From Erythrobacter insulae (GTDB lineage Bacteria; Pseudomonadota; Alphaproteobacteria; Sphingomonadales; Sphingomonadaceae): a stretch of DNA of 64,000 nucleotides. The stretch lies in assembly GCF_007004095.1 (NCBI RefSeq), contig NZ_VHJK01000001.1, forward strand, positions 124,001 through 188,000, in the 5' to 3' direction. The translations under genes and the position numbers were made by a program. Shown here piece by piece: positions 5,730 to 45,876 of the stretch (position 1 is its first letter; every line of letters begins with the position of its first letter). The notes under the pieces are model-generated. The model was given only the letters and a program-made list of their open reading frames with translations. It was not told where the DNA came from and made no database searches.

Positions 5730-7043
5730 GTGAAGATCAAATTTCTTGCGGTAGTTCTATCCGCGCTATTTGTTTGCACTCTCCCCCCGGCTGCCTCGGC
5801 GCAGACACTTGCCGAGATTGAAGCCAAATTCGCAGCCGACGCAGCCCAGCACCGGCGCGATCTGGATGATCTTTATTCGCTGCGCGGCCTTTCGTCACCC
5901 AAGATGGAAGACCCTACGGTTCAGGACATAGCGAAGTATCTGGCGACACAGCGCGCTGATAACAGCCCCGGCTATCCCGCAGGCACAGCGGTTCTGTTCT
6001 ATGCGCATAAGGGGGACCGTCTGGCGATCTATCTGATGGATACCTCGGGTATACTGGCACACCATATCTCCGCGGTTTCTCAGCTTGATCTGCGCGATGC
6101 CGCAGGGATGTACCGGCTCGAAATGGATGTGGACGGGATTGATCGAAGCCGCGCGCCGGTCTGGCAAGGCGAGGACATCCCAGCACCAACCTTCAAAATC
6201 TCGACCAGCGAGCATGATTGGGAAAGCCAAATTTCCGATATCCTGCTGCCCCAACCGATCCGCGCAAAATTGCGCGATGTCCGGCATCTGGTGGTCGTGG
6301 CCAATGGTGTGATCGCAACCAATCCGTTCGCGGCCTTTCCCCTGAACGGTGACGAACTGCTCATCGACAGGATGAGTGTTACGGTATCGGCTGGGCTGTT
6401 CGATCTGGACCAGATGATCCGGCCCTGGGGCGGTCTGAAGGAATATAATGATATCTTGCTGGTTGGTGATCCGTTGGTTCCGGCCACACCTGATTGGAGC
6501 GTGCCTCGCCTGCCCGGCGCAGTGAAGGAGACACAGCTCCTCGCCAGCCGCACCAATACCAAAGCACTGATCGGTGAATACGCAACCAAGGTGGCGGTGG
6601 TGGACCGTATGGAAAGCGCACGGATGCTCTATTTCGCGGCGCATGGCCTGTCCGATCCGCGCGCGCCGTTGACAGGCGGGTTTTTGATGCTGTCCGGCCC
6701 CACTCCCGATGCCGCATTCTTGACCGCAGGCGAAGTCCAGAGGATGGATTTGAGCGCCAGCATCGCTGTGCTGAGCGCGTGTCAGAGCGGCCTTGGTATG
6801 GAGCATGATGGAGGCGTGATCGGGCTGGCCCGTTCATTCCAGAAAGCGGGCGTACCGCGTGTGGTGATGAGCCTTTGGAGTGTCAGCGACGAGGCGACCG
6901 TTTATCTGATGGACCGGTTCCAACTTGCCGCGATGGTACATATGCCCGCCGAAGCCCTGCGCCTCGCCATGCTGGACACGCGCAAAAAATATCCCGATCC
7001 CGCGTTGTGGGCGCCGTTCACACTGTTCGGGACTCCTCGGTAG
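5730..7043 (+). CDS. Exported CHAT-domain (caspase-like) protein
   Basis: About 437 aa, starting at GTG 5730 behind AGGGGGAAAA; TTG 5715 is a less likely alternative. An N-terminal signal peptide (KIKFLAVVLSALFVCTLP) is followed by a probable ASA-Q cleavage site at residues 22-25. The C-terminal half is a CHAT domain with the catalytic pair in place: His305 in YFAAHG and Cys351 in LSACQSG, preceded by LPGAVKE and followed by GGVIGLARSFQKAGV and VMSLWSVSD. CHAT proteins are cysteine proteases of clan CD. Bacterial examples usually carry TPR repeats, which I do not see here. Export to the periplasm is inferred. It sits between gshA and an ABM monooxygenase on the same strand, and its substrate is unknown. 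Confidence 0.85.
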   Translation: MKIKFLAVVLSALFVCTLPPAASAQTLAEIEAKFAADAAQHRRDLDDLYSLRGLSSPKMEDPTVQDIAKYLATQRADNSPGYPAGTAVLFYAHKGDRLAIYLMDTSGILAHHISAVSQLDLRDAAGMYRLEMDVDGIDRSRAPVWQGEDIPAPTFKISTSEHDWESQISDILLPQPIRAKLRDVRHLVVVANGVIATNPFAAFPLNGDELLIDRMSVTVSAGLFDLDQMIRPWGGLKEYNDILLVGDPLVPATPDWSVPRLPGAVKETQLLASRTNTKALIGEYATKVAVVDRMESARMLYFAAHGLSDPRAPLTGGFLMLSGPTPDAAFLTAGEVQRMDLSASIAVLSACQSGLGMEHDGGVIGLARSFQKAGVPRVVMSLWSVSDEATVYLMDRFQLAAMVHMPAEALRLAMLDTRKKYPDPALWAPFTLFGTPR

Positions 7044-7054
7044 GAGAGATAGTG

Positions 7055-7357
7055 ATGCTGATGGTAATTGGAAAAGCGACGCTGGGCGAGGCGGGCAAGG
7101 ATGCAGCCCTCGATGCTTTCAAAACCATGATCGAAGCCTCTCGCGCAGAACAAGGCTGCATTGATTATGCCTATGCGCTCGATGTGATTGATCCCTCGGT
7201 CATGCACATTACCGAAAAGTGGACGGATGAGGCCGCATTGGCCGAACATTTTCAAACCCCGCATATGGCGGCATTTCGATCGGCGCTGGGCGATCTCGAT
7301 GTGCAGATCATCGACGTGAAGAAATTCCGGACCGACGAAGGCGCGCCGCTTTTATAG
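7055..7357 (+). CDS. Antibiotic biosynthesis monooxygenase (ABM) domain protein
   Basis: The 100-aa product is a single ABM-fold domain: a first strand (MLMVIGKATL), the helix AALDAFKTMIEASRAEQGCIDY, the conserved DPSVMHITEKWTDEAALAEHFQTPHMAAF stretch and a last strand. ATG 7055 is preceded by TAGGAG with 8 bases of spacing, which fixes the start. The family includes YgiN-like quinol monooxygenases and heme-degrading enzymes, and most members are small dimers acting on quinone-like compounds or of unknown role. It follows the CHAT gene by 11 bases, so the two are probably co-transcribed. It is convergent with the next gene. Confidence 0.8.
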   Translation: MLMVIGKATLGEAGKDAALDAFKTMIEASRAEQGCIDYAYALDVIDPSVMHITEKWTDEAALAEHFQTPHMAAFRSALGDLDVQIIDVKKFRTDEGAPLL

Positions 7358-7362
7358 GCGCT

Positions 7363-8772
7363 TTATTCAGCGGGTTCGGGTGCAGCTTTGCCGGCGCCTG
7401 TATCCCGGCGGTCTATCCGGTCAAGAACGCGGCGTTTTAACCGGGCAAACGGCGCAGTGATCAATCCGTTATGCTCCATCCAGTCGTAATATTCGCGGTA
7501 CTTTGGATCTTCGCCCAAAAGGTGGGCCTCTTCGGTGCGAGCGCGCCAGTAATAAATCGCGTTGACCATCAACAAAAAGAACGTGTTACGGATCACGTCA
7601 GCCGGTGATCCGCTGGTCACCAGAAACGGCATGACAGAGCACCACCAATAGAGGTTTTTTGACAGATAGGCCGGGTGCCGCGTGTAGCGGTACGGTCCGT
7701 TGGTCAACACCCCGCGATAGGTCAGATTTGAAAAGCGGATGCCAAACGCAACCGTGGCCCAAGCATACATTGCAGTAAGAAATACGAGCCATGCCGCCCA
7801 CGCCCATAGCAGCGCTTCGTTGCCTGCCAGCCAATGCCCCCAGCTCGCAACATTGCTTTCATAGCTTAGCACTTGGCTGTTATTGCCGATGAGGCCCCAG
7901 ACAAATGGCGGATAACACAACAGCGCAGCCAGCCACCCCGCCAAGAATGGATTGCCCGACCGGATATGCGCATCCAGCGGGCGCAGCGTGAACAGATAGC
8001 CTACGGTTCCAATCTGCACGTCGATCACAAACAAAAGCGAGATCAGGAGCATCCCGAGCTCAACCGGGTTGCGCGCAATCAAATCAAGATTGGCCTCGAC
8101 CACAAAAGCGAAACCGCCCGGCAGGATCGAGATCATAAATGCGCCAAAGAACCCTTTAATGATCCATGCGCGCCAGTGTTTCTTGATCGCTTCGGCGTCC
8201 CATTCTTCGCGCCCGATCAACATCGCTCCAAAATGCCAGGTCGAATCTTTGGGATCGACCATGAACCGGTCAAGCCAGATGATGTAAGGCACCGCGAGCA
8301 CAATCAACGGCACCACTGCGACAGACAAGACCTCCATCGCAAACAGATATGATCCGTCCCAGTACCACCGGCCAAGCGCGTAAAGGCCAGCAAGAACCGC
8401 AAAGGTTGCCCAGATGCCCGCAATTTTGACAACGGAAACCGGCAAGACTTCGGCGACGCTGCGCTTTAGGCTCCAGTCGATACCGGTCGACGGGCGCAAA
8501 TGCACACGGTCCACCACCAACGACCACATCGCCATCGGACCAGCTGTAAACAGCATGGAGGCAAGCGCCGCATAAGGGCCGGAGAGCACTCCGCGCTCTG
8601 CCGAAAAAGCCCCTGAAAACCCGAAGGTTTCGGCGATTAAGGGAAATGCCCGGCAAAACGCGATCCAGCCAAACAGGCCAAACAATCCGGCAAGGCCTAC
8701 GCCTGCCGATACGTCGCTTTTCGGCGGCTCGCTTTTGAAAGCTGCCGCGCCGGGTTGAATGTTTGCGCTCAT
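7363..8772 (-). CDS. Multi-pass membrane protein with ICMT/PEMT-type methyltransferase domain
   Basis: The 469-aa polytopic protein has many hydrophobic segments from residue 25 onward. The C-terminal quarter has the signature of the isoprenylcysteine carboxyl methyltransferase / phospholipid methyltransferase family: GVLTNGPYRYTRHPAYLSKN, followed by AIYYWRARTEEAHL and YREYYDWM. These enzymes methylate lipid-type substrates in the membrane using SAM. The N-terminal 300 residues are much longer than in minimal ICMT proteins and have no function I recognise. The substrate is unknown. Confidence 0.75.
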   Translation of the reverse strand: MSANIQPGAAAFKSEPPKSDVSAGVGLAGLFGLFGWIAFCRAFPLIAETFGFSGAFSAERGVLSGPYAALASMLFTAGPMAMWSLVVDRVHLRPSTGIDWSLKRSVAEVLPVSVVKIAGIWATFAVLAGLYALGRWYWDGSYLFAMEVLSVAVVPLIVLAVPYIIWLDRFMVDPKDSTWHFGAMLIGREEWDAEAIKKHWRAWIIKGFFGAFMISILPGGFAFVVEANLDLIARNPVELGMLLISLLFVIDVQIGTVGYLFTLRPLDAHIRSGNPFLAGWLAALLCYPPFVWGLIGNNSQVLSYESNVASWGHWLAGNEALLWAWAAWLVFLTAMYAWATVAFGIRFSNLTYRGVLTNGPYRYTRHPAYLSKNLYWWCSVMPFLVTSGSPADVIRNTFFLLMVNAIYYWRARTEEAHLLGEDPKYREYYDWMEHNGLITAPFARLKRRVLDRIDRRDTGAGKAAPEPAE

Positions 8773-8854
8773 GACCCTGTGGGCCGTAGCGCAAAATGGT
8801 TAACAGGCCGGTGCCAAACCACGCGTGATTACAGGCCGCATGGACCCCGCCCTA

Positions 8855-10183
8855 TCAACGCCAGGCGTGGATCGTCCCCGCATCATCGAGGATATACAGA
8901 TGGCCGCCGGCAACCACCGGAGGAAGGCTGACGGGTTCCTTGATCTCGGCGAACAGCTGTGATGATCCTTCGCCTGTGCTGATCCGCCAGATTTCACCGC
9001 GCGAACTCGCCACCCACAGATGATTTCCGGCCAGCACCGGTCCGGTCCAAAAGATCGGGTCCTGCTTTTTCTTCTCATTGCGGAATGGCTGAAGCTGGGT
9101 GATCCAGCGGACACGGCCGCTGGACCGGGCAATCGCCAGAACACGCGCATCATCGGTAAGGGTGAAAATCCATTCCCCGGCAATTGCCGGGGTGGAAATG
9201 CCAGCCAAGTTCAATTCCCAGATGCGCTGGCCCGTTACCAGTTCATACGCCGCCATTCTGCCGCCCTGACCCAGCGCGTAGACGCGGCCGGAATCGATAA
9301 TGGGATCGGCATCAATGTCGGTAAGCGAGCCGACTTGTGTGGAAATGTTGGTCCGCGCCAGCGCATCCGCCCAAAGCGTGCGTCCGTTCTCGTACCGATA
9401 GGCGTTGAGTTCACCAGAGGAATATCCCGCAATCACGGTGCCCTGACCCGCAGCGGGAGCCGCAACGCCGAACACGCCCGACTGCGCCGTAGAACCCGAT
9501 TCGTCCCACACCAGCGACCCGTCGGATGCGCGCAGCGAAATGATCTGATTGTCCTGCGTCATGACAAAGATTTGCCCGAACGCAATTGTCGGCGATCCGC
9601 GCAGCGGGCCGGCGGGCTTTACCTTCCAGATCTGCTCGCCTGTTTCCGCTTGCAAGGCTTTGACTTCGCCGGCGCCATTGGTCGCATAAAGCAGGCCGTT
9701 GTCATAGCTGACACCGCCGCCAAACGCCGATGGCCGCATGTCATCGTCCATCACAGCATCGGACCGCCACACAACCGCACCGGTTTGCTTGTCAAACGCG
9801 TGAATCGTTCCGTCAGACCCGACCGCGAACAGTTTATTGCCGCCGATGACAGGTGCCGCCGCAAGGCGCGCGCGATTGGTCGATCCTTCGACCTGCGCGG
9901 TCCAGGCGCGGGTAAGGTTCTCACCCAGAGCCAAATGGCCGTAGGCTTTGCTGGCTGATCCGCCCACTTGTGCCCATTCGGCGTTGTTTCGGGCAGGCGG
10001 CAAAACCACGCTGACACCGGCCAGTTCAGGATCGACGACAGCGCCGCTTTCGATCCGCGACAGGATCGGCATACGCTCGCCGATTGTCGGGGTCGTTTTC
10101 TCTTCACCGGCACAACCGGTCAACACGGCGGCCAATGCGCCTGCGACCAAAGCTGTTCGAATAGAAGGTAGCTGTTTCATCAT
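8855..10183 (-). CDS. bamB: Outer membrane assembly lipoprotein BamB-like beta-propeller
   Basis: About 442 aa. The lipoprotein signal ends with the lipobox LTGC (Cys24 from ATG 10183). The mature part consists of repeated PQQ-like beta-propeller blades, each with the pattern A-x-D-x-x-T-G-x-x-x-W: FDKQTGAVVWR, LQAETGEQIWK, RASDGSLVWD, YELVTGQRIWE and AIARSSGRVRWI. BamB is a scaffold of the BAM complex on the periplasmic face of the outer membrane. ATG 10183/10180 is preferred to TTG 10195 because GGACGG lies just upstream. The YfgM-like gene 64 bases upstream on the same strand repeats the yfgM-bamB order of E. coli. The 82-base gap downstream shows nothing. Confidence 0.85.
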   Translation of the reverse strand: MMKQLPSIRTALVAGALAAVLTGCAGEEKTTPTIGERMPILSRIESGAVVDPELAGVSVVLPPARNNAEWAQVGGSASKAYGHLALGENLTRAWTAQVEGSTNRARLAAAPVIGGNKLFAVGSDGTIHAFDKQTGAVVWRSDAVMDDDMRPSAFGGGVSYDNGLLYATNGAGEVKALQAETGEQIWKVKPAGPLRGSPTIAFGQIFVMTQDNQIISLRASDGSLVWDESGSTAQSGVFGVAAPAAGQGTVIAGYSSGELNAYRYENGRTLWADALARTNISTQVGSLTDIDADPIIDSGRVYALGQGGRMAAYELVTGQRIWELNLAGISTPAIAGEWIFTLTDDARVLAIARSSGRVRWITQLQPFRNEKKKQDPIFWTGPVLAGNHLWVASSRGEIWRISTGEGSSQLFAEIKEPVSLPPVVAGGHLYILDDAGTIHAWR

Positions 10184-10247: not shown

Positions 10248-11039
10248 TTAAAGACCTGTTGAAGGCCCCAAGCCTGCTTCGGGATCAACCCCCTGATCCT
10301 CAAGCAGCTTGTCGACGTCCACGACCGCATCGACACCAAGCAAGCCCGCCATCTGACGAGCGCGCGAGCGCAGAGTTTCGGGTTGCTCTTCGTCTTTCGC
10401 GATTTCGCCGAACAAAGCGCCGGCGGCATCGCGGTTGCCCGCTTCGAGATGCGCGATAGCTGTCAGCTCACCGGCGCTTCCGAAAAAGGCATTGCCGGGC
10501 ACCGCAAGGCCTTTGAGCTTTGCGATTACATCGGCCGGATCACGATCATCGAAATTGGTCGAGACTTCGCGCAGCAAGGCGAGATCGCGCAGCGCTGGCG
10601 GTGCGTTTTCATCGGCGGCGATCATGCCAAACAATTCGACTGCTTTCGCAGTATCGCCTTGCTCCAATGCCGCCGCTGCCTGGATAAAGCGGGCTGCGGT
10701 GCGTGCACCGTCATTCTCAGAATCAAGCAACGCGTCTGCTGTTTCGCTCGACGCGGAGAAATCGCCTGCCTCGGATTGATCCAGCGCTTTCACAAGTGTT
10801 TCAGACTGCTGTTCCAATTGGCCTTCGCGGTAATTGTCCCACAGCAGATATCCACCAAACGCAGCCAGTACCAGCGCGAGCGCAGAGCCAAGCATTACGC
10901 CGTATTTCTGGAAAAACTGCGTGGCATCATCCTGCCGCACAGCTTCGTCAATTTCGCGCATCAGGATTTCATCTTCAGGAGACGGATCCTCGACGGTGAC
11001 TGACGGTGTTTTTTTCGAACCGGTAGGTTTGAGCGCCAC
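10248..11039 (-). CDS. YfgM-like TPR protein (ancillary SecYEG-associated subunit)
   Basis: The 263-aa protein has a short cytoplasmic N-terminus, one transmembrane helix (about residues 48-66, VMLGSALALVLAAFGGYLLW) and a periplasmic alpha-helical region of TPR type, with repeated A-rich helix pairs such as AARFIQAAAALEQGDTAKAVELF. This matches the TPR_21/YfgM family, which in E. coli binds SecYEG and hands exported proteins to periplasmic chaperones. Its position directly upstream of bamB matches the conserved pair. In E. coli and many other bacteria the GTPase gene der follows bamB; it is not present here. Confidence 0.8.
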   Translation of the reverse strand: MALKPTGSKKTPSVTVEDPSPEDEILMREIDEAVRQDDATQFFQKYGVMLGSALALVLAAFGGYLLWDNYREGQLEQQSETLVKALDQSEAGDFSASSETADALLDSENDGARTAARFIQAAAALEQGDTAKAVELFGMIAADENAPPALRDLALLREVSTNFDDRDPADVIAKLKGLAVPGNAFFGSAGELTAIAHLEAGNRDAAGALFGEIAKDEEQPETLRSRARQMAGLLGVDAVVDVDKLLEDQGVDPEAGLGPSTGL

Positions 11040-11204: not shown

Positions 11205-12350
11205 TTATTTCGGGCCGGTCCAAGCGCCGCCCAGCGCGCTCGAATACAGATCGGCATACCGCGCGACCATCTTTGACTTGTCGAAAAACTCCGCCGCCTT
11301 TGCTCGATTTTGCGCTCCGATTTCAGTGCGCAGCGCAGGATTTTCGGCCAGCTCTGCAAGCATGATTGACAGCGCGTTGGTATCGTTTGGAACCGCGATA
11401 AATGGCCGGTTCTTGTCGGCGACTATGCCCTTCACATCGCCCACATCGGGCGCAGCAATGGGCAGGCCAGCGGCCATCGCCTCAACAACGGACAGCGGGA
11501 ATTGTTCGGATTTCGATGAGAGCGCGAAAATATCGAACAGCCCGATTACCGATGCCGGATCGGCCACAGCTCCGGGCAGATGGACGCGGTCGCTGATATC
11601 ATGGCGCAAAGCCGCATCTTGGATCGCATCGCGCTCCGGACCCTCGCCCAGAATCACCAAATGCCAGTTTTCAGGCAGGTCCCTAATCGCCTCGACCAGC
11701 ATCGGCAGCTGTTTGACAGCGCGCAGCCCGGCCAGTGTTCCGACCCATTTTTCACCATCATGCTTTAACAGGCGCAATTTGCTGGAATCGGGTTTGCGCG
11801 CGAATGCCTTTGTATCGATCCCGTTGGGAATGCGTACGACCCGCTGGCGCGGCTGTGCCCACGCATCCAGCGCCACTTTCTCCAGCGTTTCACTTGGCAC
11901 AACCAGCGAATGCGCCCGGCCAAGCGCAATTCGGCGGTACCAGTTTCGGGTCCATTTGAGCTGGTGCGCTTCGTCTTCGTTAAAGCCGTCCTCGTGGTGG
12001 ATCAGCGGCGGCAAATCGAATTGCTGCGCAAACACCGTATGCGCCATGACCACATCCATCGCGCCCCAATTGTATGTCAGGATCAGATCATAGGCTTTCA
12101 AAGCCTGCGCAATGGCGACCAGCCGGCCCGGTGTCGGCTTCCCGGTGAGAGACGGGAAGTTATCGGGATATCCGACCACCGCCCGTGTGCGATCAATCAG
12201 GGACCGTGCCCCCATTTCATTCGGCATCGCAGAGACAATATGATGCAATAGCCCTTTGCCAAACGCGTTGATTAAAGCGGCGCAGCGCACCTCCTTGCCG
12301 CCTGCCGAGAATGTCGAATGGCAGTGAAGAACCTTGGGCGTATCACTCAT
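11205..12350 (-). CDS. Glycosyltransferase family 4 protein
   Basis: The 381-aa GT-B fold protein has an N-terminal acceptor domain beginning VLHCHSTFSAGGKEVR and a C-terminal nucleotide-sugar domain with RIPNGID, WVGTLAGLRAVKQLPMLVEA, LVILGEGPERDAI and the E-x7-E motif in SEQFPLSVVEAMAAGLP. These are group 1 retaining glycosyltransferase signatures. Donor and acceptor are unknown; surface polysaccharide or glycolipid synthesis is usual for the family. Its ATG at 12350 overlaps the stop of the upstream hydrolase (ATGA), implying translational coupling. The 165-base gap downstream to the YfgM-like gene holds only short GC-rich repeats. Confidence 0.85.
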   Translation of the reverse strand: MSDTPKVLHCHSTFSAGGKEVRCAALINAFGKGLLHHIVSAMPNEMGARSLIDRTRAVVGYPDNFPSLTGKPTPGRLVAIAQALKAYDLILTYNWGAMDVVMAHTVFAQQFDLPPLIHHEDGFNEDEAHQLKWTRNWYRRIALGRAHSLVVPSETLEKVALDAWAQPRQRVVRIPNGIDTKAFARKPDSSKLRLLKHDGEKWVGTLAGLRAVKQLPMLVEAIRDLPENWHLVILGEGPERDAIQDAALRHDISDRVHLPGAVADPASVIGLFDIFALSSKSEQFPLSVVEAMAAGLPIAAPDVGDVKGIVADKNRPFIAVPNDTNALSIMLAELAENPALRTEIGAQNRAKAAEFFDKSKMVARYADLYSSALGGAWTGPK

Positions 12351-13213
12351 CAGATTGCCGCCAGCAATTCATCAATCGCGCCGCGTGCCTCCGGCTCGTC
12401 CAAAGTCGGCGCATGGCCGACACGGGGCACTGTCACGGTTTTTAACGCCGGATTGCGGCTTTCCATTTTTGTGACCGTTTCCGGCGTCAGCAAATCCGAT
12501 AATTCCCCGCGTAGCAACACCATGGGTACATCGCACAAAGCCTCGTATGCTGGCCATAAATCGGGCGGTGCGGCGTTGCCGGGCTGTTTGAACGGTTCTG
12601 CGATGGCCATGTCATAATCATAGCTGATCCGGCCATTCTGGCTGACCACCAAAGTCCGCTTTGCCATCTCAAGCCATCTATCAAGATCGTAATCGGGGAA
12701 TGCCGCGCCATGCACATCTTTGAGCGAGCGCGCGGCGTGGATCCATGTCGGATAGCTGCCGCCCTGACCGACATACTGCCCGATCCTTTCAACACCGACC
12801 GGATTAATCTCTGGCCCGATATCGTTCATCACCACAGCTGCGATCCGGCCCGGCTTTGCCGCCGCCATCAGCATCGTCATCAATCCGCCCATCGACGTTC
12901 CGATTGAAATAAATCGGTCAATGCCTTCTTCATCGAGCAGCTTTTCGACGTCGGCGACATATTGCATCGGATTGTAGGTTTCCGATGACGGCGCATAATC
13001 GCTTAATCCGCGTCCGCGCATCTCGGGCACGATTACGCGGCGGGTCTGGCACAAATGCTGCGCAAGGCCTGCAAAGTCGCGCGAATTGCGGGTGAGGCCG
13101 TGCAAGCATAGAACCGGCGGGCCATCATAGTCTGCTGGCCCGGCATAATCGCGGTAGTGCAAATTGAGCCCGTCCGCGCTTGTCCAAGAGCGGTCTTCGT
13201 ATTTTGATGCCAT
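12350..13213 (-). CDS. Alpha/beta hydrolase
   Basis: About 287 aa from ATG 13213. The fold is clear: oxyanion-hole HG in LCLHGLTRNSRDF (near residue 38), the PEMRGRGLSD turn at 63-72, the nucleophile elbow GTSMGG with Ser107, and a C-terminal VGHAPTLDEPEA segment carrying the catalytic His. Members include esterases, lactonases and C-C hydrolases, and no substrate can be assigned. The open frame continues upstream to 13537, but that part overlaps selO on the other strand, has no family resemblance and was not included. A ribosome site AAGGA lies 12 bases before the ATG, longer than ideal. It is translationally coupled to the glycosyltransferase. Confidence 0.82.
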   Translation of the reverse strand: MASKYEDRSWTSADGLNLHYRDYAGPADYDGPPVLCLHGLTRNSRDFAGLAQHLCQTRRVIVPEMRGRGLSDYAPSSETYNPMQYVADVEKLLDEEGIDRFISIGTSMGGLMTMLMAAAKPGRIAAVVMNDIGPEINPVGVERIGQYVGQGGSYPTWIHAARSLKDVHGAAFPDYDLDRWLEMAKRTLVVSQNGRISYDYDMAIAEPFKQPGNAAPPDLWPAYEALCDVPMVLLRGELSDLLTPETVTKMESRNPALKTVTVPRVGHAPTLDEPEARGAIDELLAAI

Positions 13214-13288
13214 GTCAGGCGCATATCCTTCACAGATTGTCTCGTCTGCGCGCTTGCGCACGCTCACTCTTGCCCCCACTATCGCCGG

Positions 13289-14698
13289 ATGCGTTCCGAA
13301 CCGCAACCTTCCGCATATCGCGCCGATACCGTCATTGCGCAGCTTACCGATTGGATAGCCGCGCCGGTTGCTGCCGCCGACTTCCCCATGATGATGGTGC
13401 GGTTCCGCAACGATCGATGGGCCAGCACCGTCGGGCTTGATCATCTCAACGATTCCGACTGGGCGAGGCATTTCGGGCAGTTTGTGCCTTTGCAGGACAA
13501 TCTGCCGCGGCCTTTGGCGCTGAAATATCACGGGCACCAGTTTCGCGTTTACAATCCCGATATCGGGGATGGCCGCGGTTTCTTGTTCGCGCAGATGCGT
13601 GATGGCGGCGGCCGTTTGCTTGATCTAGGCACAAAAGGGACAGGCCAGACCCCGTTCAGCCGCGCCGGAGACGGGCGCCTGACGCTCAAAGGCGCCGTGC
13701 GCGAAATCCTTGCGACAGAGATGCTGGAGGCGCTCGGCGTGAATACCTCCAAAACATTTTCGGTGATCGAGACCGGCGAAAAGCTGATCCGGCAAGACGA
13801 ACCCTCGCCTGCTCGGTCTGCCGCGATGGTCCGGCTTAGCCACTCGCACATCCGAATCGGGACTTTCCAACGTCTGCTCGCCCACGAAGAGAGCGAGCAA
13901 ATGGAGGCGCTGGTTGAGTATTGTCTGACGAATTTTCCGGGCAACATGCCGCCCGAAGACGCACCGGGCCGCGATGAACCGGCGGTGATTTTGCTGCATC
14001 AAGTGGTCGAGCGCATGGCCGATCTGGCGGCGAGTTACATGGTATCAGGGTTCGTCCATGGCGTGCTCAACACCGACAACATGAACATTACGGGCGAAAG
14101 TTTCGATTATGGCCCGTGGCGCTGGCTGCCGACTTGGGATCCGGGCTTCACTGCGGCCTATTTCGACCATAGCAGCCTTTACGCGTTCGGGCGTCAGCCA
14201 GAGGCTTTGCATTGGAATTGCGGTCAATTGGCGGTGTCGCTGCGATTGCTGGCCGATTCAGAGCCGCTGGTGGCCGCAATGAACCGGTTTGGCGAATTAT
14301 ACATGTCAGCAATCGCGCGGCGGTGGTGCTGGCGATTGGGCGTAGAGCCACGCGGAACCGAGCATGACACGGCATTGGTCGGTTTGTGTGAACAGGCGAT
14401 GCGCGCATCATCGACCGGACCGGATGAATTTTTCTTCGGTCACCGCGCGGGCCGCGGCGATGCAGCGGGTGAATTCGGCGAGGCTCTGGCGCAATACACT
14501 GCGGCTGATAGCTCGCATGATTACTGGTCCGATGATGTCCCGCAAAGCATGCTGATCGAAGAAGTCGAAGCAATCTGGGCCGCGATTGACGAGCGGGACG
14601 ATTGGAGCGCTCTCAACGCCAAAGTGGATCAATTGCGGCGCATGGGTGAGGCGCACGGCGAACCGCCCGTGGCAGCTTGTCATTCAAAACCCGAATAA
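13289..14698 (+). CDS. selO: SelO/YdiU protein adenylyltransferase (AMPylase)
   Basis: The 469-aa pseudokinase-fold protein has ALKYHGHQFRVYNPDIGDGRG, LDLGTKGTGQTPFSRAGDGRLTLKGAVREIL, HGVLNTDNMNITGESFDYGPW and YFDHSSLYAFGRQP, all SelO landmarks. SelO binds ATP in a flipped orientation and transfers AMP to Ser/Thr/Tyr residues of proteins involved in redox balance. Eukaryotic forms have a C-terminal selenocysteine; this one ends without such a motif, as in many bacteria. It is divergent from the alpha/beta hydrolase with a 75-base gap. The 163 bases after it contain a small palindrome (CAATTT-GTA-AAATTG) but no clear terminator. Confidence 0.93.
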   Translation: MRSEPQPSAYRADTVIAQLTDWIAAPVAAADFPMMMVRFRNDRWASTVGLDHLNDSDWARHFGQFVPLQDNLPRPLALKYHGHQFRVYNPDIGDGRGFLFAQMRDGGGRLLDLGTKGTGQTPFSRAGDGRLTLKGAVREILATEMLEALGVNTSKTFSVIETGEKLIRQDEPSPARSAAMVRLSHSHIRIGTFQRLLAHEESEQMEALVEYCLTNFPGNMPPEDAPGRDEPAVILLHQVVERMADLAASYMVSGFVHGVLNTDNMNITGESFDYGPWRWLPTWDPGFTAAYFDHSSLYAFGRQPEALHWNCGQLAVSLRLLADSEPLVAAMNRFGELYMSAIARRWCWRLGVEPRGTEHDTALVGLCEQAMRASSTGPDEFFFGHRAGRGDAAGEFGEALAQYTAADSSHDYWSDDVPQSMLIEEVEAIWAAIDERDDWSALNAKVDQLRRMGEAHGEPPVAACHSKPE

Positions 14699-14861
14699 CG
14701 CAGCCAAATCGAGGCAACATCACCTTGTTATCAATTTGTAAAATTGCACCGCACTCTTTCCTTTGGTCAAAGGGATCGTTAGCTGATTTGGCTATCGAGC
14801 CTTGCCCCGATGTAGGGTAAAGCCACATGAGGAACCTCACAGAGAGGGCAGATTATCAAGC

Positions 14862-16274
14862 GTGACCGATAAAACCCTAATTTCATATGACCCTGCGACT
14901 GGCGAAGAATTGTGGCGCGGTGAACACGGCGATGTTGATGCCGCAGTCAGCGCCGCACGCCGCGCATTTCCCGAATGGGCCGCACGCCCCCTTGCCAACC
15001 GGATCGAAATGGTTCGCCGGTTTGCCAACGAAGTTCGCGCCGAAGCAGATGGCATTGCCGAACTGATCACTCGCGAAACGGGCAAACCGTTGTGGGAATC
15101 AAGGACGGAAGTCGATGCGGTGATCAACAAAGTTGATATCTCGGTAAACGCCTATGCTGAACGCACTGGCAAGAAAAAGCTGGATAGCGCGATGAACGGA
15201 ACCGCCGCGCTGCGTCACAAGCCGCACGGCGCGATGGCTGTGCTTGGTCCGTACAATTTTCCGGCACATCTCCCGAATGGTCACATCATTCCGGCATTGA
15301 TTGCTGGCAATGTTGTGTTGTTCAAACCATCGGAAAAATCGCCAGCTGTGGGCGCGGCGTTGGTTGAATGTTTCCGCAAGGCCGAATTTCCCGAAGGCGT
15401 GGTCCAGCTTGTGATCGGCGGCCCTGACGAAGGCAAAGCACTGGTTGCACATCCCGGCATTGATGGCGTGCTGTTCACAGGCTCCGCCAATGCAGGCATC
15501 GCAATCAATCGCAAACTCGCTTCGAATCCGGGTAAGATTGTTGCTCTGGAAATGGGCGGAAACAATCCAATTGTGGTGACCAACACACCGTTGCTCACCG
15601 ATGCGGCGGCTCTGATTGTACAGAGCGCTTTTACCAGTGCGGGCCAACGCTGCACCGCAGCGCGCCGATTGGTCATCGTTGATTCGATGTATGATGCGCT
15701 GATTAAAGAGCTGGTCAAGCTCACCAAGAGCCTGCTCGTCGGTGATCCTTTGGGTGATCCGCAACCATTTATGGGGCCGGTGATCGACAACGAAACCGCC
15801 GAATTGCTCGGCGAAAGTTTCCTCGCGCTGGTCACAGCGGGCGGTAAGCCGATTACGCATTTGCGCCGGATATACCCGGACAAACCATTTTTGACGCCCG
15901 GCATTATTGATACGACCGATATCCCGGAAAGGCCCGATATCGAGCTGTTCGGCCCGATTTTGCAGGTGATTCGGGTGCCGGATCTGGATGCAGCCATTGC
16001 CGAGGCGAACAACACGCGTTTCGGTCTTTCGGCATCCCTGATTGGCGGCTCACCCGAAGACTACGCCCGGTTCTGGGCGAATGTTCGGGCCGGCATAATC
16101 AACTGGAACAGGCCGACCAACGGAGCATCATCATCGGCTCCATTCGGCGGTATTGGTCTGTCTGGCAATCACCGTCCCGCAGCGTTTTACGCCGCAGATT
16201 ACTGCGCCTATCCCGTTGCCAGTAATGAAATGGAACAACCGCGCGCCAATATCGGCGTTGGCCTGAAAAGCTGA
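14862..16274 (+). CDS. astD: Succinylglutamate-semialdehyde dehydrogenase-like aldehyde dehydrogenase
   Basis: The 470-aa ALDH-superfamily enzyme contains GPYNFPAHLPNGHIIPALIAGN (cofactor site), ALEMGGNNPIVV (general-base Glu) and SAGQRCTAARRLV (catalytic Cys). The LPNGHI and GGNNPIVV variants are characteristic of AstD, which oxidises N-succinylglutamate semialdehyde in arginine catabolism. GTG 14862 is the best start I see; GAGGG lies 13 bases upstream, so the start is uncertain. No other ast gene is in the window, so either the pathway genes lie elsewhere or the enzyme serves another aldehyde. Confidence 0.8.
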   Translation: MTDKTLISYDPATGEELWRGEHGDVDAAVSAARRAFPEWAARPLANRIEMVRRFANEVRAEADGIAELITRETGKPLWESRTEVDAVINKVDISVNAYAERTGKKKLDSAMNGTAALRHKPHGAMAVLGPYNFPAHLPNGHIIPALIAGNVVLFKPSEKSPAVGAALVECFRKAEFPEGVVQLVIGGPDEGKALVAHPGIDGVLFTGSANAGIAINRKLASNPGKIVALEMGGNNPIVVTNTPLLTDAAALIVQSAFTSAGQRCTAARRLVIVDSMYDALIKELVKLTKSLLVGDPLGDPQPFMGPVIDNETAELLGESFLALVTAGGKPITHLRRIYPDKPFLTPGIIDTTDIPERPDIELFGPILQVIRVPDLDAAIAEANNTRFGLSASLIGGSPEDYARFWANVRAGIINWNRPTNGASSSAPFGGIGLSGNHRPAAFYAADYCAYPVASNEMEQPRANIGVGLKS

Positions 16275-42354: not shown

Positions 42355-42821
42355 TTACAGAGGCCGCATTGGATTTCGCCGAGGCATTGCCTGATGGCGG
42401 CGTGTTGCTGGGTCTGGATCCGGGCACAAAAACCATTGGCACCGCGATCTGCGATGCCGGATGGCGCTTCGCCACGAATGGCAAGACATTAGGCCGCGGC
42501 AAATGGACGCGCGATAAAGGCTTGCTTTCGGAAGTCATCCAATCGCGCCGCGTACAAGGTCTTGTCATCGGGCTACCGCGAAATATGGATGGCAGCGAGG
42601 GGCCGCGCGCTCAGGCGGCTCGTGCCTTTGCCCGAAATTGCTCCGAAGCTTTTGATTTACCGATCCTTTTGTGGGACGAACGCTGGTCCACACAAAGCGC
42701 CGAAGCCGCGATGATCGGACAAGATATGAGCCGCGCCAAACGTGCCGAGGCCATTGACAGCCATGCTGCGGCGATCATTTTGCAAGGCGCAATTGACCGG
42801 CTGGCAGGCGGAATACTCTAA
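42336..42821 (+). CDS. ruvX: RuvX/YqgF-family putative Holliday junction resolvase
   Basis: About 161 aa from ATG 42336, inside the end of the DUF3089 gene. The RNase H-like fold is shown by VLLGLDPGTKTIGTAICD (first catalytic Asp), VQGLVIGLPRNMDGSEGPRAQAARAFA, LLWDERWSTQSAE and the C-terminal AIDSHAAAIILQGAID. The family acts in pre-16S rRNA maturation and has been proposed to resolve Holliday junctions. No good ribosome site is visible, so translation may depend on coupling. Confidence 0.9.
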   Translation: MGGGALITEAALDFAEALPDGGVLLGLDPGTKTIGTAICDAGWRFATNGKTLGRGKWTRDKGLLSEVIQSRRVQGLVIGLPRNMDGSEGPRAQAARAFARNCSEAFDLPILLWDERWSTQSAEAAMIGQDMSRAKRAEAIDSHAAAIILQGAIDRLAGGIL

Positions 42822-43714
42822 CCGGCCAACGCCGCTCTGCGCCGTTTTGCGATAGCCATTACCATCTCGCCGCCCGACTTTTCCGCCATTCGCCACAGAT
42901 CGTCCTGTTCGCATGGATTGGAAAGCCGCGCCGCTCGCGCTTCAAAGCTGGCCAGCCGCAGCCTGTCGCTGGGATGGTTGCGCCCTACCCATTCTGAATA
43001 ATCCAGCGCTTCATCCGATCCAACGCCGATCGCAATACGCAAGAAAGTCTCGGTCGCGTTCGGGCTGAGCACGCGTGTCACTTCGCGCTGTTCCAGATCG
43101 AATCCGTATTGATCGAACCAGCACTGCGCCGGATCGACATGCATCACATTGAGCGAGACTGAGAGGCTTTCCGGTGGCAGTTGGGAATGAACATCGCGGT
43201 GCGCGCGGTAGAGCATGATTTTGCCTTCATGCAGGGCGCTTCGCTCAATAAAGTTGAGCGATGCAGGCTCGCCGGTGAAACCGGCCACCGCTTCATAATC
43301 ATACTCAAAATAATCACTGCGATATCCAGGCCCGCAATATCCGCTCGTGAGAAACGAGAAATTGTGATCATGCGGCACGCCATAAACGAAGCTGCCTGCG
43401 CCGCTGTTGCGGAAACACAGATCTTGTTCCGCAGGCCAGATATTCGCGCGCAAGAACATATTGCCGCGTCTGTGGCTCAGCACGATAGCTTGCGGACCAT
43501 AGCCGCTCTCTATGTCCCCTTGTGTACGCCCTGTGATCCGGTCAATCAGCATGTCCGCCAGGAATGTCCGATTATTCGTCAGCCGCTTTAGCCAATGGGC
43601 AGCGACGGCCGTACTTTCGGGATCAAGCGGATCAAAATTGCAATGTGCAAGTGCCTCCTCACACTCGGACAGGGAACACGTTTGCGCCGATGTGCTTTCG
43701 ATTAATTGCGGCAT
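42818..43714 (-). CDS. Unknown cupin-like protein with three-His (thiol-dioxygenase-like) pattern
   Basis: About 298 aa from ATG 43714, which shares a base with the upstream stop (TGATG). No named family is recognised with confidence. The middle reads GSFVYGVPHDHNFSFLT (His115, His117) and, 55 residues later, MLYRAHRDVHSQLPPESLSVSLNVM (His172/His176). HxH plus a later His followed by SVSL is the arrangement of cysteine-dioxygenase-type Fe(II) cupins. The C-terminal 80 residues are helical. It is the third gene of a leftward operon with a 52-aa peptide and a second unknown protein, so it may oxidise that peptide (inference). Confidence 0.6.
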   Translation of the reverse strand: MPQLIESTSAQTCSLSECEEALAHCNFDPLDPESTAVAAHWLKRLTNNRTFLADMLIDRITGRTQGDIESGYGPQAIVLSHRRGNMFLRANIWPAEQDLCFRNSGAGSFVYGVPHDHNFSFLTSGYCGPGYRSDYFEYDYEAVAGFTGEPASLNFIERSALHEGKIMLYRAHRDVHSQLPPESLSVSLNVMHVDPAQCWFDQYGFDLEQREVTRVLSPNATETFLRIAIGVGSDEALDYSEWVGRNHPSDRLRLASFEARAARLSNPCEQDDLWRMAEKSGGEMVMAIAKRRRAALAG

Positions 43715-44697
43715 CACTCAGCCCCCGCGCAGAGCTGTCGCAATTCCGGATGAGCCAAAGACAATTGCCCGCGCAGCTGCTCCGCTGGCTCACACAACTG
43801 ATCCCCTTTGTCGGCTGCGATCTGCACCAAAAGGGCCATTCCATCCCTGCTATCGCGTGCCAGCATGTGCCGCACCGCCTCCCATCGAACATCCTGGGCT
43901 TCATCGCGGTTCAAGGCGCTGTACCGGAACGTCTCACCAATGACTGGATCGCAGCATTCCAGAGCGCCCAGCACCGCGAGCCCCATCAATCGCTGGCTCG
44001 CTGTTTTATCCCCGCTTGTGCTTTTCAGCAACGCTCCATCGGGCAGCCGGTATTCGCGCGACGGTTTGGCCTGCTGCGGCAATCGTGTCAGGCGCAGGAT
44101 AGCCATGACGCTTTCAACCTTGACTATCTGACGAGCCTGCGAGCGCCCGGTGAACGACAGGCAATCTCCGGCATTCAGATTGAACCGGGTGGTGATGATC
44201 GATGCCGCGTCTTGGCTCGTTTCATCCATCTGATGCCGCGTCGCCAATGCTGATCCAGAAAGGATGATCTCGTGGCATTCACAATCAGCGAAAAGCACGC
44301 TTTGCGGGAATCGAACTTTGCATTCGGTCTGCCGTTCATAAACAATCAGGTTCAAGGACGCTCGGCCCGACTGCATGATCTGCATATTGGCGAGGCCCGG
44401 AGAGTACCGGTATTGATACGGCACCTCTCCCAGCGGCTCTTGGCGAACGGCATCAAGCGCCGATGCGATCCACATCTCGGTCAGCTCAACGGCGCTATCC
44501 GCAGCTGTCATGATAGCAGCCAAGCCGGGGCATTGAGACAGGGCGCAACCGCCCCCGAATTCGGTGAGGTCGCGCGCCAGAACCCGGGCCACATGGCTCC
44601 TTTGCCACTGCTCTTTACCGCGGCCCATTCGGTCTGAGATGCGGCGCTGCAAAGCTGTATCGCTCCGCAGCGCCGCGATGTCGGGATGGATAATCAT
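43714..44697 (-). CDS. Unknown protein, second gene of the peptide operon
   Basis: The 327-aa protein has a helical N-terminus (about 100 residues, with GGCALSQCPGLAAIMTAAD). A beta-rich centre containing RASLNLIVYERQTECKVRFP, CECHEIILSGSALATRHQ and FNLNAGDCLSFTG looks cupin-like. A C-terminal alpha-helical part (VRWEAVRHMLARDSRDGMALLVQIAADKGDQLCEPAEQLR) resembles HEAT-type repeats. I do not recognise the family. It starts 18 bases after the 52-aa ORF and its stop overlaps the cupin-like gene, so all three are probably one transcript. A substrate-binding partner is a plausible role but unproven. Confidence 0.6.
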   Translation of the reverse strand: MIIHPDIAALRSDTALQRRISDRMGRGKEQWQRSHVARVLARDLTEFGGGCALSQCPGLAAIMTAADSAVELTEMWIASALDAVRQEPLGEVPYQYRYSPGLANMQIMQSGRASLNLIVYERQTECKVRFPQSVLFADCECHEIILSGSALATRHQMDETSQDAASIITTRFNLNAGDCLSFTGRSQARQIVKVESVMAILRLTRLPQQAKPSREYRLPDGALLKSTSGDKTASQRLMGLAVLGALECCDPVIGETFRYSALNRDEAQDVRWEAVRHMLARDSRDGMALLVQIAADKGDQLCEPAEQLRGQLSLAHPELRQLCAGAE

Positions 44698-44715: not shown

Positions 44716-44874
44716 TCAAATGACCGTTTCAGGCGGTACGCTGTCATAGACATAGACCATGATCGACACGATCGATTCCTCGTAAGCGGCACCGATTTGA
44801 CTGACTGATCCGTACAGACCTTGCGCGGTCTCAAGACCAGGAATGGCAGCAATATCAAGTGTTGGAAGTTTCAT
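44716..44874 (-). CDS. 52-aa peptide, candidate precursor at the head of an unknown operon
   Basis: This ORF is too short for most gene callers. ATG 44874 is preceded by AAGGGAC with about 6-7 bases of spacing, one of the better ribosome sites nearby. The peptide starts MKLPTLDIAAIPGLETAQG, has a middle LYGSVSQIGAAYEES and ends IVSIMVYVYDSVPPETVI. It has no Cys and no signal peptide, and its hydrophobic stretch is too short to cross a membrane. The leader-like, helix-compatible start and the unusual Val/Tyr-rich end are what a modified-peptide precursor could look like. The two downstream genes on the same strand are unknown proteins, one with an iron-cupin pattern. Confidence 0.6.
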   Translation of the reverse strand: MKLPTLDIAAIPGLETAQGLYGSVSQIGAAYEESIVSIMVYVYDSVPPETVI

Positions 44875-45002
44875 GTGTAGGTCCCTTTTGCACCCGCGCT
44901 TCAGCGGAATTGCCGAAGCGCAGGAGCCAAAGTGACGCGAAGAGCTGCGCTAGAGAAATTAAATGATTGTAATGCGCTGCGCCGCATTCCAATGGTCTTG
45001 CC

Positions 45003-45491
45003 ATGAGCACACCACTCGCCCGTTTTGATCCCAGCGAAGCCTCGAAATTCTTCTTCAGGCACGGCCACACCGGCTGGCTCGGGCTTAGATACAGCGCCCA
45101 TCAGGACAATTGGGTTGAGCTGGAATTGCCGTGGCGCGAGGATTTGCTGGGGGAGTCCGATCGTGCGGTGCTTGCATCGGGTCCGATCATCAGCCTGATG
45201 GACATGGCAAGCGGCATGTCCATCTGGCAAACAAAGGGCACGTTCACGCCCATCGCCACACTCGATTTGAGGGTCGATTATCAACGCCCCGCGCGCGAGC
45301 GCAGCTCTGTATGGGGGCGCGTTGAATGCTATCGCATCACCCGATCCGCAGCATTTGTTCGCGGGATAGCGCACGATGGTGACCACAATGATCCAGTGGC
45401 GCATGTGGCCGGTGTCTTCATGACCATCGGCAAAGATCCGCGGCAAGGCAAAGTGCCCAATGGCAGCGAAGCGGGGACCGGCGATGAGTAA
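45003..45491 (+). CDS. PaaI-type hotdog thioesterase
   Basis: The 162-aa protein shows the hotdog pattern GWLGLRYSAHQDNWVELELPW, ASGPIISLMDMASGMSIWQTKGTFTPIATLDLRVDYQRPA and VAHVAGVFMTIG. The usual catalytic Asp/Asn-Gly region is replaced by SGPIISLMDMASG. Such enzymes hydrolyse acyl- or aryl-CoA thioesters. It overlaps a second hotdog gene by eight bases, suggesting a heteromer or paired activity. It is divergent from the peptide operon across 128 bases, which contain an AT-rich stretch (GAAATTAAATGATTG) but no confident promoter. Confidence 0.78.
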   Translation: MSTPLARFDPSEASKFFFRHGHTGWLGLRYSAHQDNWVELELPWREDLLGESDRAVLASGPIISLMDMASGMSIWQTKGTFTPIATLDLRVDYQRPARERSSVWGRVECYRITRSAAFVRGIAHDGDHNDPVAHVAGVFMTIGKDPRQGKVPNGSEAGTGDE

Positions 45492-45876
45492 GCTTGAACT
45501 GCCGCCCTATGCCATTGCGCTTGGCATTCGCGGTCATGACATCGAAAACGGCGTTCCTGTTTTGACAGTTGAATTCGGACCGTCAGTTGAAGGCCGCCCC
45601 GCCCATTATCACGGCGGCGCAATCGCCGGATTGCTGGAAAATGCAGGCTACGCGGTGCTGCGGGCCCGCCTGATTGAGGAAGGCCGCGAAGCCAAGCTCA
45701 AGCCGGTCAATATTACCGTCCAATACCTGTCCGCCGGAAAAACGCAGCCAAGCTTTGCCAAAGGGCGGATAACCCGTCTTGGTCGTCGCAATGCGAACAT
45801 CACGGTCGAGGCATGGCAGGATAATCGCGACCGGCCCATCGCCACAGCGATCATGAATATATTGATGGCGTCATGA
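45484..45876 (+). CDS. PaaI-type hotdog thioesterase, second copy
   Basis: The 130-aa protein contains FGPSVEGRPAHYHGGAIAGLLENAGYAVL, the HGG-x2-A-x-LLE active-site helix of PaaI-type thioesterases, and LKPVNITVQYLSAGKTQPSFAKGRI. It has the classical motif that the upstream partner lacks. ATG 45484 overlaps the partner by 8 bases. Substrate unknown. It is convergent with the PBP gene. Confidence 0.8.
   Translation: MSKLELPPYAIALGIRGHDIENGVPVLTVEFGPSVEGRPAHYHGGAIAGLLENAGYAVLRARLIEEGREAKLKPVNITVQYLSAGKTQPSFAKGRITRLGRRNANITVEAWQDNRDRPIATAIMNILMAS

Follow-up and report, generated by a model that had tools for sequence, protein, structure and literature searches.

A short peptide gene linked to a pair of cupin-like proteins in Erythrobacter insulae, a candidate RiPP-type precursor locus

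In Erythrobacter insulae, a gene for a peptide of only 52 amino acids (aa), here called P, heads an operon in which it is followed by two genes, A and B. The locus lies in the window, that is, the whole 64,000-nucleotide (nt) stretch analysed here (contig NZ_VHJK01000001.1, positions 124,001 to 188,000 of the forward strand), and the question it raises is what so short a peptide does in front of two such genes. Our analysis revealed that P is a selected coding gene, that P, A, and B are linked in a nearly all-or-none manner and stay together in many bacteria of marine origin, that A and B are homologous, and that a set of histidines present in B is absent from A. We consider it likely that P is a precursor of the RiPP type (ribosomally synthesized and post-translationally modified peptide), with B as a putative oxygenase and A as its non-catalytic partner.

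Gene P and its linkage to A and B

The open reading frame (ORF) of P translates to MKLPTLDIAAIPGLETAQGLYGSVSQIGAAYEESIVSIMVYVYDSVPPETVI, followed by the stop codon. The sequence features that the original prediction had reported were borne out: a good ribosome-binding site (AAGGGAC) lies 6 nt ahead of the ATG, the co-oriented gene A starts 18 nt past the P stop, and the peptide contains neither Cys nor a long hydrophobic helix, since its highest 19-residue Kyte-Doolittle mean of 1.08 indicates no ordinary membrane helix. The A stop and the ATG of B overlap by 1 nt. The view that P belongs to no described family also held, as no meaningful match was found in Pfam, NCBIfam, PADLOC, and PHROGs; across these collections P, A, and B of the window had no match at E < 0.03, and none of the three reached a family cut-off in Pfam or NCBIfam.

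Profile searches were carried out in a genus-level set of 61 genomes, comprising the window's own and 60 relatives. The P profile matched 21 of them, all in the window's genus and the same 21 at E < 1e-4. All three genes are present in 19 genomes (in pieces at contig ends in two of these, G010 and G013) and none in 39, with remnants in the other three: P only in G005, P and a C-terminal B fragment in G008, and a short B remnant in G002. As far as the contigs extend, P occupies the same site between the RuvX and hotdog genes in 20 relative loci, with the flank order LepB - hydrolase - RuvX - [B-A-P] - hotdog - hotdog - PBP - MoxR. The P copies in these loci start with ATG as called, encode 46–57 aa, and lie 7–31 nt from A, while B overlaps or closely adjoins A where both are whole; in two of the loci, L036 and L048, A is gone and B is missing wholly or for the most part. 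When public genomes were scanned with B, 305 loci were obtained, and among the nearest 80, which were retained, P, A, and B were all matched in 79, the one exception being a contig end. Because at least 10 of these 80 loci are on the same contigs as genus-set loci, the counts of 19/61 and 79/80 are not independent.

To estimate selection, 22 non-overlapping locus pairs picked by B identity were compared, giving pooled dN/dS values of 0.158 for P (21 pairs, with the saturated pair L078-L087 omitted), 0.248 for A, and 0.112 for B; each value for P was at most 0.44 where defined. These ratios indicate that P is under purifying selection. Earlier pairs chosen by dS had given medians of 0.44 (1691 pairs) and 0.47 (38 greedy pairs), with several values above 1. 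We attribute this to the inclusion of distant loci whose synonymous sites are saturated or biased in codon use, and these pairs were replaced by the B-identity pairs. P is a real coding gene.

Distance matrices were correlated by Mantel-type comparison for 73 of 81 entries (80 loci and the window), eight without full P, A, B, and hotdog proteins having been dropped. The partial correlation of P with A distances was 0.44 after the hotdog neighbour and B, and that of P with B distances 0.27 after A and the hotdog neighbour, both uncorrected for phylogeny. The correlation between P and A is a hint that A may meet the leader part of the peptide.

The remnants resemble stages of operon loss. A and part of B are deleted in L036 (G008); A and B are gone and P is decaying in L048 (G005); and a bare B remnant of 37 codons persists at G002:C1:1375863-1375973. 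In the G005 copy, the leader positions Pro12 and Phe/Tyr21-Gly22 are broken, a pattern that is intact in 76 of 79 other peptides.

Proteins A and B

The predicted structure of A is good (mean pLDDT 89.9) and consists of helices, a cupin-like sandwich, and HEAT-like helices. Its top structural matches are thiol dioxygenases and other cupins (Foldseek, VIA-align); a cupin family not named in the VIA list cannot be taken as absent. Comparison of deep profiles built from 33 B and 32 A divergent sequences aligned the two proteins over 255 columns (hhalign probability 98%, E 6e-14), which shows A and B to be paralogues; 17-sequence profiles gave a probability of only 0.5%. In the alignment, the H115-H117 stretch of B faces a gap in A. 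Since A is related to B but has no conserved His and lacks this stretch, it is probably a pseudoenzyme paralogue of B.

The 33 B proteins, a set that overlaps a 26-protein set, extends to 18% identity, and excludes locus L191, share R89, W93, G128, G130, Y131, and Q178 besides the three histidines H115, H117, and H176. From the His set and the predicted fold, we infer that B is an enzyme. The HEAT model matched 11 of the 33 B and 21 of the 32 A proteins at E up to 0.1, and HEAT-type repeats were the best matches for the B C-terminus when solved structures were searched by sequence with the deeper B profile; the first profiles had returned nothing meaningful. At E up to 1, window A had no match in Pfam or NCBIfam, and window B matched no Pfam family. 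For a leader recognition domain (RRE) or an equivalent of it, the distance correlation between P and A hints at A.

B was found in 98 of 296 sampled genomes of the window's order, all in its own family and two as short remnants. It was also present in 3 of 289 genomes of a class sample, all in that family, and in 14 of 398 genomes of a phylum sample, 2 of them outside it. Two other families, searched because each already held a B match, gave 5/79 and 3/79 genomes. No phage matched B, and one plasmid record did (Alteromonas stellipolaris pASTE61-200, 42% identity to window B). A distant A-B pair was also seen on a plasmid of Vibrio sp. ED002 (L237, 5282-6838) beside Tn3 transposase and restriction-modification genes, where an annotated 59-aa ORF overlaps the end of B in place of one ahead of A.

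Peptide anatomy, divergent relatives, and the proposed mechanism

Column conservation was analysed in 79 coding sequences (CDS), from 78 loci and the window, leaving out L105, for which no in-frame start was called where one was expected, and L085, which is cut by a contig end. Conservation is highest at Pro4, Ile6, Pro12, Leu14, Phe/Tyr21, Gly22, Asp33, Met39, Val40, Tyr43, and Asp/Glu44. These positions outline a leader-like N-terminal and a core-like C-terminal segment (Table 1), the latter with the motif DD-x-I-V-x-I-M-V-Y-V-Y-[DE]. The segment [VTIA][YFW]x[YHFC][DES] is present in all 79 peptides, and the tail beyond it is variable and 2–13 residues long. The PPE end, which the original prediction had singled out, sits in this tail after Tyr-Asp/Glu and belongs to the least constrained part of the peptide. 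A run of at least four Pro occurs near the C-terminus in 11 of the 79 peptides (L051, L052, L057, L058, L059, L060, L064, L071, L076, L089, and L100; e.g., PPPPPPPGLF), and EF-P may be required to translate such peptides.

The slot before A was further scanned in 44 divergent loci (L224 and L237 are outside this set) for ORFs of 34–65 aa with a ribosome site. At least one was found in 40 of the 44, and in 36 a slot ORF of 36–63 aa was judged by eye to be precursor-like, with L223 and L225 doubtful. A leader motif, composed after part of the sequences had been inspected, occurs in 17 of 52 slot ORFs versus 2 of 583 comparable control ORFs from other places; for a hydrophobic tail of net negative charge the counts are 17 of 52 and 5 of 583. 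Across these loci the N-terminal pattern persists in many peptides and the C-termini differ, including Val/Ile runs (L173, L175, and L198) and FVIPIIII (L174). L222 and the Alteromonas plasmid share a Cys/Gly type, TVGxxCxxxGxxxGV, and the G827 peptide has GIPPFIGYQEPPIEEL following a double-glycine-like leader.

Analysis of gene order placed exporter genes next to some of these peptides. The genes of the Alteromonas plasmid run Yip1 - HlyD - ABC ATPase - MacB/FtsX - two short ORFs - A - B - ABC ATPase - ABC-2 permease, the two short ORFs having no entry among the gene-table rows listed. In G720, two paralogous peptides stand in tandem before A-B, preceded by a MacB-type ATPase and permease (Pfam); by eye, an HlyD-like stretch lies upstream, and B is followed by a reading frame for an ABC-type ATPase. 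Both orders appear to be the layout of an exported, modified peptide.

Three observations in divergent loci stand apart. L223 (G721, 5940-9900) contains two A-B pairs in tandem, and the ORF before the second pair carries the similar segments STLFIFAARK and STAFIFAAQR, possibly a pair of cores within a single precursor. Near the A-B genes of L227 (G827), an ORF at 10295-10552 (+) has a Lys-rich stretch, MKLKLNKKKLKNLSKDKKSLPAEMT, which resembles a lantibiotic-type leader. A large adenylation-like ORF, recognized by eye, lies at 12005-15937 (-) of the same locus.

In the proposed mechanism, P would be the ribosomal precursor of a post-translationally modified peptide, in which the N-terminal half serves as a recognition leader and the Val/Ile/Met/Tyr-rich C-terminal segment is the part modified. 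B would be a mononuclear non-haem metal cupin oxygenase, probably with Fe(II) and three His ligands, that oxidises C-terminal side chains, and A, a B paralogue without the metal site, would bind the leader and/or hold the precursor in place. The metal, the oxygenase activity, the modified residue, the removal of the leader, and the biological role are all predicted. Our guess is that aliphatic beta-branched residues are oxidised, because Tyr, Met, or Cys is missing from many distant cores whereas Val/Ile is retained; as the distant cores have little else in common, this would be the simplest reaction to fit them all.

Table 1. Features of the P-A-B locus in window coordinates
Feature	Position	Strand	Basis
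Gene P, putative RiPP-type precursor, 52 aa	44716..44874	minus	profile, start/length, dN/dS
Ribosome-binding site AAGGGAC	44881..44887	minus	sequence; 6 nt 5' of ATG 44874
P residues 1-23, conserved N-terminal leader-like segment, ID-x3-[LI]-P-x-L-[DE]...[FY]G	44806..44874	minus	column conservation, 79 CDS
P residues 32-52, C-terminal core-like segment, with EESIVSIMVYVYD conserved and the tail SVPPETVI variable	44719..44781	minus	column conservation
Gene A, 327 aa: helices, then a cupin-like beta sandwich, then HEAT-like helices; without conserved His; B paralogue, probably a pseudoenzyme	43714..44697	minus	model, profiles
Gene B, 298 aa: helical N-terminus, then a cupin-like core bearing H-x-H...H, then HEAT-like helices; probably a metalloenzyme (predicted)	42818..43714	minus	model, profiles
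B H115-D116-H117, putative metal ligands H115 and H117	43364..43372	minus	invariant in 26/26, and in 33/33 of the overlapping set
B H176, putative third metal ligand	43187..43189	minus	25/26; 33/33 in the set without L191
Two hotdog genes, divergent, just upstream of P	45003-45876	plus	

Comparison with known systems and alternative readings

One mark of a RiPP locus, a ribosomal precursor ORF under selection next to enzyme-like genes, is found here. The original prediction had taken a short peptide gene followed by two unknown proteins for the layout of a peptide-modification locus, and this was supported by homologues at the same place in the 20 relative loci and by a dN/dS of P that is not near 1. 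Further support comes from the kinship of A and B, the three-His set of B, and, in some relatives, the two short ORFs, the exporter genes, or the double-glycine-like leader; the 39 of 61 genomes without the locus qualify it.

P-A-B shares with RiPP clusters in general a short precursor ORF with leader-like and core-like parts beside enzyme-like genes and, in some gammaproteobacterial relatives, two precursors with exporter genes. It differs in that A and B match no class-defining enzyme model (Pfam, NCBIfam) and form a pair of a cupin and a paralogue without conserved His. No class-defining enzyme of the lanthipeptide, lasso, YcaO, radical SAM, or MNIO/DUF692 classes was found in the locus when A and B were compared with the four collections above and the neighbours were inspected. 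Darobactin-type clusters combine a small precursor with a MacAB-like exporter, an arrangement also seen in G720 and on the Alteromonas plasmid; they encode a radical SAM enzyme, whereas none was seen among the Alteromonas genes scanned, which have the A-B pair instead. With CDO, ADO, and the plant cysteine oxidases, A and, weakly, B (Foldseek) share the cupin fold, and B has three His, invariant in the 33 B sequences on a weakly modelled fold, that may form a CDO-type metal site. The spacing from invariant R89 to H115 in B is 26, which equals that of R60-H86 in CDO. Unlike these enzymes, A and B have an extra helical N-terminus and a HEAT-like C-terminus and, in the window, match no Pfam model, neither window B nor the 33 B members match the CDO family profile (Pfam), and the window peptide has no Cys. 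The nearest precedent among the literature matches listed is PbsQ, a cupin-like ornithine hydroxylase of a biphenomycin-like RiPP that is related to a JmjC protein and acts alongside an MNIO, an arginase, and a B12-radical SAM enzyme (PMC12257519). Like PbsQ, B is proposed to be a cupin-fold protein acting on a RiPP precursor; compared with PbsQ, B has a three-His set, HEAT-like helices, and a paralogous partner, and no other modifying gene was recognized in its operon.

No published description of P-A-B was found among the matches listed in the full-text literature, which appear there as titles and abstract starts, with most subscription papers outside the coverage. If B does oxidise P, it would represent a kind of peptide-tailoring enzyme without RiPP precedent among those matches, paired with an inactive paralogue. 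We regard P-A-B as a candidate for a new class of RiPP and not as something new in kind. A fuller proposal, quite possible though short of likely, is that this class is built on a HEAT-cupin heterodimer of a three-His oxygenase and a metal-less paralogue, that it is exporter-linked and partly plasmid-borne in gammaproteobacteria with several core types, and that it was domesticated in Erythrobacteraceae as a peptide that is chromosomally fixed, exporter-less, and under selective constraint, and that has taken up a resident role in the cell or in signalling.

Several observations weigh against the precursor-oxygenase reading. On the enzyme side, the B model is poor (mean pLDDT 58.8), its best fold match is weak (8vni, E 1e-3, Foldseek; the same thiol dioxygenase/cupin kind on top), and no cupin or CDO Pfam family matched any of the 33 B proteins at E up to 0.1. 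The B of L191 (G180) has Arg for H176 in an operon that is kept; its peptide before A is changed, ending in PCLFPFALLD, and the locus is possibly an inactivated copy. A is matched only partially in L076, L079, L107, and L122, as is B in L100, perhaps through frameshifts or sequencing errors. On the peptide side, both the leader-like and the core-like halves of P are conserved in near relatives, unlike a fast-evolving bacteriocin core. The 19-residue hydropathy mean exceeds 1.6 in 7 of the 79 close peptides and in 9 of the 19 aligned ones (1.08 for window P), so that some relatives' peptides appear hydrophobic enough for a membrane helix. The leader motif was devised with part of the sequences in view, and L224 and L237 have no precursor-like ORF before A. 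The Cys-type cores and the Tyr-rich core of the window leave room for other chemistry, and the modification, product, and function of P are putative. In addition, no exporter, protease, or regulator was seen by eye beside the operon in the 20 relative loci of the window's lineage, and an export route through C39 peptidases was rejected, as their genes show no association with the locus (9 of 19 P-A-B genomes versus 7 of 18 other genus genomes).

The absence of a linked exporter in the window (by eye) also fits an alternative in which P is no substrate but stays unmodified and serves as small subunit or activator to an A-B enzyme acting on a small molecule, for example a thiol. The thiol-dioxygenase-like fold of A and, weakly, of B and the conservation of P over most of its length among near relatives agree with such a role, which we nevertheless regard as unlikely in view of the different peptides that G720 and the Alteromonas plasmid carry in tandem beside exporter genes, the double-glycine-like leader of G827, and the wide C-terminal differences between lineages. 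It is quite improbable that P is instead a pheromone, secreted as a signal with release of its hydrophobic C-terminal segment, and that A-B are its processing or sensing proteins. The fixed chromosomal site in the genus and the C-terminal segment conserved within the lineage suit a signal, as do the Val/Ile-rich tails, which are akin to the short hydrophobic peptides of streptococci, but the operon has no recognized regulator or receptor, and A-B resemble a metalloenzyme and its paralogue; a signal would be compatible with the precursor-oxygenase reading if the modified product were the signal. That the ORF acts as an attenuator, a leader that regulates A-B and whose translation rather than product matters, is hardly credible: it lies directly ahead of A and the Pro runs of the 11 peptides could stall ribosomes, but the amino-acid sequence, including the N-terminal half, is under purifying selection, tandem copies occur, and the idea was set aside with no Rfam family at E up to 0.1, no promoter-like site, and a single terminator-like site, within B (shuffled mean 2.2).

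Among the neighbouring genes, RuvX and one hotdog gene exceed the Pfam cut-off and the second hotdog gene is a sub-threshold NCBIfam match; the PBP, MoxR-type, LepB, and hydrolase genes were named by eye. A homologue of the hotdog gene nearer to P was found in 76 of the 80 close loci. Of 46 divergent loci, 18 have such a homologue close to B on the opposite strand.
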